DNA of 64,000 nucleotides from Agrobacterium tumefaciens. GTDB lineage: Bacteria > Pseudomonadota > Alphaproteobacteria > Rhizobiales > Rhizobiaceae. Under the pieces are notes generated by a model, which ran no database searches, had not been told where the DNA came from, and saw nothing but the letters and a program-made list of their open reading frames with translations. The stretch lies in contig NZ_CP072309.1 of the NCBI RefSeq assembly GCF_017726655.1, positions 489,501-553,500 of the forward strand, written 5' to 3'. A program made the translations under genes and the position numbers. Below are positions 9,995 to 53,439 of this stretch, piece after piece (positions within the stretch are counted from its first letter, which is position 1; the number at the start of each line of letters is the position of its first letter).

Positions 9995-10118
9995 AAAGGA
10001 AAAAGCCTGCCGCGGGAGGAGGTGCGGCAGGCTTCAAACTTGATCGGTGATTGGGAGGAGGAGTACCACCGATCCACATCGAGCGACGCTGGGAGGAGGA
10101 GTGCGTCGCTTCGATGAT
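9995..10118 (-). ncRNA. Three-hairpin small RNA with anti-Shine-Dalgarno loops (alpha-r14/NfeR1-like, 'cuckoo'-type)
   Basis: On the minus strand three consecutive hairpins occur: 10115-10078, 10074-10042 and 10034-10003. Their stems are about 12, 8 and 11 bp. Each loop displays CUCCUCCC (CCUCCUCCC in the third), which is complementary to the ribosome-binding site. The third stem is followed by TTTTTCCTTTT and acts as an intrinsic terminator. A TATATT -10 box at 10127-10122 places the 5' end near 10115, giving a transcript of about 120 nt. This matches the known rhizobial alpha-r14 family (S. meliloti NfeR1) and related alphaproteobacterial CUCCUCCC RNAs, which block translation by pairing with GGGAGGA-type sites. 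The targets here are inferred. Confidence 0.87.
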
Positions 10119-10121
10119 TGG

Positions 10122-10208
10122 AATATAGCGGTTCCTGCGATTTTTAACAGAGCAAGTCTCGCAATGCAGCATTGCAAATCTGCATAGCTCCCCGAATCTT
10201 GCTCTGTT
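10122..10208 (-). promoter_or_regulatory. Promoter and nested inverted repeats upstream of the small RNA
   Basis: The -10 box TATATT (10127-10122) has only a poor -35 match, which suggests activation. A 15-bp palindrome GCAATGC-A-GCATTGC lies at 10161-10175, about -46 to -60 from the predicted start, a classic activator position. It is enclosed by an 11-bp inverted repeat, AACAGAGCAAG (10146-10156) and CTTGCTCTGTT (10198-10208). A LysR-type activator would fit this geometry, but none is encoded nearby. The outer repeat could also act as a transcript hairpin after the serine dehydrogenase gene. Confidence 0.55.
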
Positions 10209-10235
10209 TTTCAGCACACATCGTTCAGCGGGACA

Positions 10236-53092: not shown

Positions 53093-53160
53093 TCCTTCAA
53101 AGAAGAAAAATGCAGCAGAGCAGTCAAGAGCGGAGAAATCGTTCTCGGGAGGAGAGCAAC

Positions 53161-53439
53161 ATGTATGCACCTCGTGTCTTTTTCAGCATGATTGGTGCCT
53201 TGCTTGCCTTTGCCATCGCGACATATTTCATCCACGGGTCGTTCTACACGGCTCTCATTCAGACCCTCGTCTGCGCCGTTATCCTCCAGATTGGCTATTT
53301 TATCGGGATTCTGGTTCTCGTTGCCCGCGAAAAGCGCAGAATGCGTGAGACCTTTTTGCGCGACCGCAATGCCGATATCATTGCGGTTGACACGGCCAAG
53401 AGCGCGCCGCCGCATGGAGCCAAACTCTCCGATATGTGA
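53161..53439 (+). CDS. SyrA/ExoX-type exopolysaccharide regulator (small membrane protein)
   Basis: 92 aa. Two adjacent membrane helices (about residues 5-25 and 30-52: APRVFFSMIGALLAFAIA; ALIQTLVCAVILQIGYFIG), then a basic cytoplasmic tail EKRRMRETFLRDR. This matches the exopolysaccharide production repressor family of rhizobia, which tunes succinoglycan synthesis post-transcriptionally. The site GGGAGGAG (53147-53154) stands six bases before the ATG and is fully complementary to the loops of the small RNA at 10 kb. A glycosyltransferase gene follows. Confidence 0.83.
   Translation: MYAPRVFFSMIGALLAFAIATYFIHGSFYTALIQTLVCAVILQIGYFIGILVLVAREKRRMRETFLRDRNADIIAVDTAKSAPPHGAKLSDM

Follow-up and report, generated by a model that had tools for sequence, protein, structure and literature searches.

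Three consecutive hairpins that share one loop motif lie on the minus strand of the stretch of DNA analyzed here (64,000 nucleotides of Agrobacterium tumefaciens, hereafter the window), which raises the question of what kind of RNA they form and what this RNA would control. The hairpins extend from 10119 to 9998 and each loop contains CUCCUCCC, with a T-run located 3′ of the third hairpin. The original prediction described three such minus-strand hairpins, with coordinates that were correct to within a few bases, and both the sequence and its fold bear it out: the folded RNA reaches -57.9 kcal/mol relative to a mean of -31.28 for shuffled sequences (z = -7.25), and 0 of the 200 shuffled sequences were equally stable.

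Identity and Structure of the RNA

The RNA had been attributed to the alpha-r14/NfeR1 family and a covariance-model search had been proposed. Using cmscan, we obtained a full-length match to the Rfam family ar14 (RF02344), with a score of 120.2 bits relative to a cut-off of 58.8 and positions 1-123 of the 123 positions of the model aligned at 9998-10119. We place the ends of this αr14/NfeR1-type small RNA at 9998..10119 (minus strand), following the Rfam model. In addition to its full-model score, the RNA presents CCUCCUCCC unpaired in three hairpins and variable stems with invariant loops, and we are all but certain that it belongs to the αr14 family; both the family and the three-loop architecture initially proposed agree with the covariance model as well as with the covariation described below. 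The RNA is of a known kind, since the ar14 family is already in Rfam. That it might not yet have been annotated was also suggested, which does not hold for the family: besides the Rfam entry, Agrobacterium homologues appear in an earlier promoter alignment (PMC10746234).

Hairpin 1 (10077..10116, minus strand; 13 pairs) and hairpin 2 (10042..10074, minus strand; 10 pairs) both present the loop CUCCUCCUCCC, and hairpin 3 (10035-10002; 12 pairs) presents the loop CCUCCUCCC. Hairpin 3 is followed by a run of five T that is partly able to pair, and the two together (9998..10035, minus strand) probably constitute an intrinsic terminator. This double role of the last hairpin had been anticipated and is consistent with both the covariance model and the stem covariation, termination itself being predicted from the sequence. 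A simple terminator scan of the window, which takes loops of 3-8 bases, did not list hairpin 3, whose loop has 10. Across the genome, CCTCCTCCC is found in 53 copies and 10 of these fall within three ar14 loci (3+3+4).

Several other families resemble the window RNA. Cuckoo RNAs are reported to contain 2-4 hairpins (PMC4504443) with one conserved loop motif (e.g., SmelA075 and SmelA099); the window RNA, with its hairpins and loop motif, is of the three-hairpin type and we found no feature setting it apart from this family. It also has its motif in common with CcsR1 (RF02791), which is named for the CCUCCUCCC motif, but its score against this model is 37.1 bits, under the cut-off of 65.3, so that it does not qualify as a member. 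Finally, AbcR1/2 (ar15, RF02345) present some likeness to the window RNA: partial anti-Shine-Dalgarno loops are reported in AbcR (PMC3927594), uptake genes are AbcR targets and AbcR1 is under VtlR control (PMC7486931). AbcR1/2 nevertheless constitute a family separate from ar14, with two copies of their own at the LsrB candidate described below.

Copies and Genomic Context

Matches to ar14 were found in all 37 genomes of the genus (the source genome and 36 relatives), with 2-7 matches apiece, a few of them below the cut-off. Among genomes of other families of the same order, 9 of 24 had a match and 1 of 24 had a match above the cut-off. The source genome carries three copies: C1:1997552-1997673, the window copy, and C2:1898595-1898719. 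We sorted the fetched loci into class A (similar to the C1 copy), class B (similar to the window copy), and class C (similar to the third copy). One locus, L032, belongs to class A by score and to the window type by synteny; it is included in class A for the box counts given below (30 loci, leaving 28 in class B) and in class B (29 loci) for the counts of the NtrC-like element. Three of the 29 class C loci (L102, L121, and L125) have fewer than four motifs and were excluded from the box counts, and five loci without a motif cluster (L124, L126, L127, L128, and L137) were left unclassed.

The syntenic marker of the window copy is a short-chain dehydrogenase (Pfam PF00106; 10236..10985, minus strand) located upstream of the RNA. 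The same gene is found upstream in all 27 other class B loci and in L032, and an M24 peptidase neighbor was found in 18 of these 27 loci; L032 has both neighbors. The RNA had been described as lying between a transporter operon and a serine dehydrogenase. The upstream gene is a short-chain dehydrogenase by Pfam, which does not establish serine as its substrate, and downstream we found an M24 peptidase (Pfam) and an open reading frame whose translation resembles an oligopeptide-type solute-binding protein. Synteny did not support orthology of the window copy to nfeR1 of S. meliloti: matches to the dehydrogenase or M24 peptidase were found in 2 of 120 collection loci (at most 8 kb each and many trimmed close to the match) and near an ar14 cluster in L237 alone. 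Six copies of the NfeR1 locus are reported in S. meliloti, one of them detected by Northern blot (PMC7143759), which implies that not every ar14 copy found here need be active.

Four hairpins were found in 26 of the 29 class C loci, including the third copy of the source genome, which corresponds to the four-hairpin type of cuckoo RNA. In this class, a -10-like sequence and the 5′ end precede the first hairpin and the Rfam match covers hairpins 2-4 alone, so that annotation by Rfam match omits the first hairpin. A stretch of 170 nt of the class C copy of the source genome yielded a fold z of -7.28. For one locus (L034 3553-3722, plus strand), the conserved promoter and 5′ end indicate that the four-hairpin RNA should start about 40 bases before the Rfam match. 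These copies do not represent a new variant: four-hairpin αr14 members are already published as SmelA099 (PMC3927594). In a class A locus (L033 3323-3674, minus strand), the RNA thermometer RF02762 matches directly after ar14 in the same orientation, the two matches having 8 bases in common; RF02762 is of the C1_109596F type, published as lying upstream of cspA.

Conservation of Stems and Loops

The original prediction was to be abandoned if the stems and loops were not conserved among Agrobacterium and Rhizobium sequences. For Agrobacterium, we aligned 39 of the 58 loci at hand from classes A and B (32 distinct) and found both to be conserved: the loop columns present no variation in 39 of 39 rows and standard pairs occupy 97.9% of the cells. 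Changes on both sides were found in 13 of the 35 stem pairs: 3 in hairpin 1 (94.3% of cells paired), 7 in hairpin 2 (100%), and 3 in hairpin 3 (100%). In total, 100 cells were changed on both sides relative to 31.0 in shuffled alignments, and 0 of 500 shuffles reached as high a number. The count of further pair types points in the opposite direction from the other measures (22 vs. 24.5 in shuffles). When partners were slid as a control, 25.5-47.7% of the cells paired.

A cruder check was conducted on a collection of loci including Rhizobium, for which the counts are those of the matches listed and represent lower bounds. Among at least 492 CCTCCTCCC motifs in at least 134 clusters, 65% are flanked by stems of at least seven pairs vs. 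5% with shuffled flanks. A few clusters lack stems, such as the Streptomyces cluster L144. Three loci (L213, L217, and L229) contain tandem runs of 9 to 12 CCTCCTCCC motifs, mostly with stems; L213 and L217 are Rhodobacterales/Rhodobacteraceae by record name.

A Candidate VtlR/LsrB Promoter

The -10 box CTATAT (10123..10128, minus strand) is identical to the hexamer published for the RpoD signature (PMC10746234). The promoter scan of the window listed no promoter-like site on the minus strand, which would suit an activator-dependent promoter. At 10163..10175 (minus strand), we found a VtlR/LsrB-type box, GCAATGCTGCATT, with one mismatch to the VtlR consensus reported as GCAT-N3-TG-N3-T (PMC7486931). 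The box was searched as GCAW-N3-TG-N3-T, the fourth base having been relaxed after the alignment had been seen. This pattern is present upstream of ar14 in 30/30 loci of class A (with L032), 28/28 of class B and 22/26 of class C, relative to rates of 0.005-0.008 in shuffled sequences (0.008 for class B), in loci that are related and whose counts are not independent. All 58 of the three-hairpin loci thus present the box, and its strict GCAT form was found in 1 locus of class A, 9/28 of class B, and 22 of class C. The box starts at -56 in class A and at -56 or -57 in class C; in class B it is located 75-77 bases ahead of the first loop motif (29/29 loci), and a second, overlapping match lies 8 bases further upstream in 13 of these 29 loci.

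Among 80 listed loci of the collection, the box was found in 30 of 68 Rhizobiales clusters (0.3 expected) vs. 0 of 18 Rhodobacterales clusters, with orders taken from record names, four loci omitted (one Streptomyces and three named by class or phylum), and clusters at locus ends dropped. LsrB is described as restricted to Rhizobiales (PMC11975290). The source genome contains a candidate VtlR/LsrB gene of the LysR type, which has a thioredoxin-reductase motif on its upstream side and two ar15 (AbcR) RNAs on its downstream side; the published vtlR locus is arranged in the same way (PMC7486931). NfeR1 is reported to be activated by LsrB in S. meliloti (PMC10746234), and the window promoter likewise contains a predicted LsrB site. 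Overall, the window RNA shares with αr14/NfeR1 (RF02344; Smr14C2 and SmelC397 of S. meliloti) its three hairpins, invariant loops, length, probable terminator, LsrB-type box, and -10 box.

Our literature search, over the accessible portions of the publications, returned no account of ar14 being regulated by VtlR in Agrobacterium. In this genus, the VtlR regulon is reported to comprise more than 250 dysregulated genes, with three promoters directly bound (PMC7486931). If the shared VtlR/LsrB-type box works, αr14 RNAs would join this regulon as intermediates between VtlR and nutrient uptake. The conserved regulator boxes, common to the sister copies, are the part of this system worth testing.

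Putative Target Sites

We consider it highly probable that the window RNA is a trans-acting small RNA of the αr14 family, activated by VtlR/LsrB, whose loops silence solute-binding-protein and other mRNAs at their ribosome-binding sites. The LysR regulator VtlR/LsrB would bind the box at 10163-10175 and transcription would start from the -10 at 10123-10128. Each loop would pair with GGGAGGA(G) where ribosomes bind the target mRNAs, in particular mRNAs for solute-binding proteins, and would thereby block ribosome access. The three loops may act redundantly and hairpin 3 would additionally terminate transcription. In S. meliloti, NfeR1 is reported to silence many mRNAs at ribosome-binding sites in a loop-dependent manner, and earlier work in this species indicates that its three loops are redundant (PMC10746234). 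By homology, silencing at ribosome-binding sites by the window RNA is very likely, and the published activity fits the putative sites that we found.

The pattern GGGAGGA-N4-12-ATG was found 152 times in the genome vs. 17 times for the reversed pattern, and AAGGAGG-N4-12-ATG was found 118 times vs. 31. We rejected a specific enrichment on the second chromosome, as the distribution of GGGAGGA (C1 71, C2 81 by subtraction) presents a ratio similar to that of the control AAGGAGG (58/60). We then compared 43 solute-binding-protein genes (13/13 Peripla_BP_6 and the best 30 of 45 SBP_bac_1 matches) with 60 control genes (the best 30 of 150 ABC_tran matches and the best 30 of 65 LysR matches, whose expression is not matched to that of the solute-binding genes). 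GGGAGGA precedes a possible start in 16/43 solute-binding-protein genes vs. 1/60 ABC-ATPase and LysR genes (P = 1.4e-6). The shorter motifs GGAGGA (26/43 vs. 1/60) and GAGGA (27/43 vs. 4/60) follow the same trend, and the more 16S-like AAGGAGG was found in 3/43 vs. 1/60. This general enrichment of G-rich Shine-Dalgarno sites in solute-binding genes suggests that strong translation may explain part of the signal.

An analysis starting from the sites, which has genes in common with the gene-based one, was conducted on 50 distinct GGGAGGA sites from 100 listed (GGGAGGAG and GGGAGGAGG preferred, then by order) and on 40 of 100 listed AAGGAGG sites. Solute-binding proteins were found at 10/50 GGGAGGA sites vs. 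1/40 AAGGAGG sites (P = 0.011). When limited to the 38 and 18 sites with open reading frames of at least 80 aa on which Pfam was run, the proportions were 10/38 and 1/18 (one-sided P = 0.065), and many control sites are perhaps not true starts.

An alternative that has an appreciable chance of being correct is that the GGGAGGA bias of uptake genes serves strong translation or AbcR1/2 (ar15) and that ar14 uses few such sites. Besides the broad enrichment of G-rich sites, two ar15 copies adjoin the LsrB candidate and AbcR RNAs are reported to act on ABC-transporter mRNAs (PMC7486931). Furthermore, in five genomes of the same order without detected ar14 (under stricter filters), GGGAGGA precedes 7/29 SBP_bac_1 matches vs. 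10/30 here (P = 0.31), where the 29 rows include two genes counted twice as split matches and one below the cut-off, L474 being left out as too short. This indicates that ar14 is not the sole cause of the preference. The same comparison yielded 8/30 here vs. 0/29 for AGGAGG and 18/30 vs. 8/29 for GGAGGA. Against this alternative, AAGGAGG is uncommon in solute-binding genes (the 3/43 above) and each ar14 RNA presents three or four loops that are exact matches to GGGAGGAG.

It is improbable that the ar14 loops chiefly bind a protein or sponge RNA rather than mRNAs. CcaF1 is a protein linked to CCUCCUCCC RNAs. It is described as a small RNA-binding protein in Rhodobacter (PMC10253847), and the weak CcsR1 match of the window RNA would be in line with such a role, but NfeR1 of S. 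meliloti is reported to silence its target via these very loops (PMC10746234). It is very improbable that the hairpins act at the DNA level or as a terminator without a separate transcript, given that the -10, the box and the 5′ end are conserved and that the three stems covary around invariant loops. NfeR1 itself is reported as an expressed, Hfq-independent, target-repressing transcript.

Regarding individual targets of mRNA silencing by the window RNA, no GGGAGGA was found before the listed starts of its direct neighbors (the dehydrogenase, the M24 peptidase, and the solute-binding-protein-like open reading frame). ntrB is a target shown in S. meliloti (PMC10746234). Unlike in the NfeR1 system, the sequence upstream of ntrB here, AAGGAAGG, does not contain GGGAGG, the exact seed. 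Among five other genomes, S. meliloti not being one of them, GGGAGG precedes ntrB in R. laguerreae and R. bangladeshense and is absent in Sinorhizobium sp. 6-70, Ensifer oleiphilus, and A. pusense. With the seed lacking here and in three of the five, ntrB is unsupported as a conserved ar14 target. Elsewhere in the window, the Rfam small RNA Atu_L1 (53117-53290, minus strand; 172.3 bits) overlaps the start of a SyrA-like gene (53161-53436, plus strand) in antisense orientation. The ribosome-binding site of this gene is GGGAGGAG, and Atu_L1 hence contains CTCTCCTCCC; the SyrA-like gene is a possible ar14 target, judging from this site.

An NtrC-Like Element in Class B Promoters

A putative NtrC-like element, TGCTGAAAAACAGAGCA (TGC-N11-GCA), is located at 10200..10216 (minus strand). 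TGC-N11-GCA was found at -97 in 20 of the 29 class B promoters (0.31 expected), and the nine misses differ by one base (6) or two bases (3). The two other classes present it in 1/29 and 1/26 loci, at other positions. The NtrC signature is called not evident in Agrobacterium in an earlier study (PMC10746234), a limit set on the NfeR1 circuit that the element predicted here would revise. In the window copy, the VtlR/LsrB-type box lies between the arms of an 11-base inverted repeat (AACAGAGCAAG at 10208-10198 and CTTGCTCTGTT at 10156-10146), and this repeat overlaps the putative NtrC-like motif, which may therefore have another role.

A broader view, which we regard as less likely than not, assigns the αr14 set of Rhizobiales, with three and four hairpins, largely to the VtlR/LsrB regulon as one of its arms and adds repression by NtrC via the -97 element for the window-type copy of Agrobacterium. 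If such NtrC repression is true, nitrogen-gated anti-Shine-Dalgarno silencing would not be confined to plant symbionts, contrary to what has been suggested. In all 20 window-type promoters that contain the element, its start lies 41 bp ahead of the box, unlike in two Sinorhizobium loci, where this distance is 53-54 bp.
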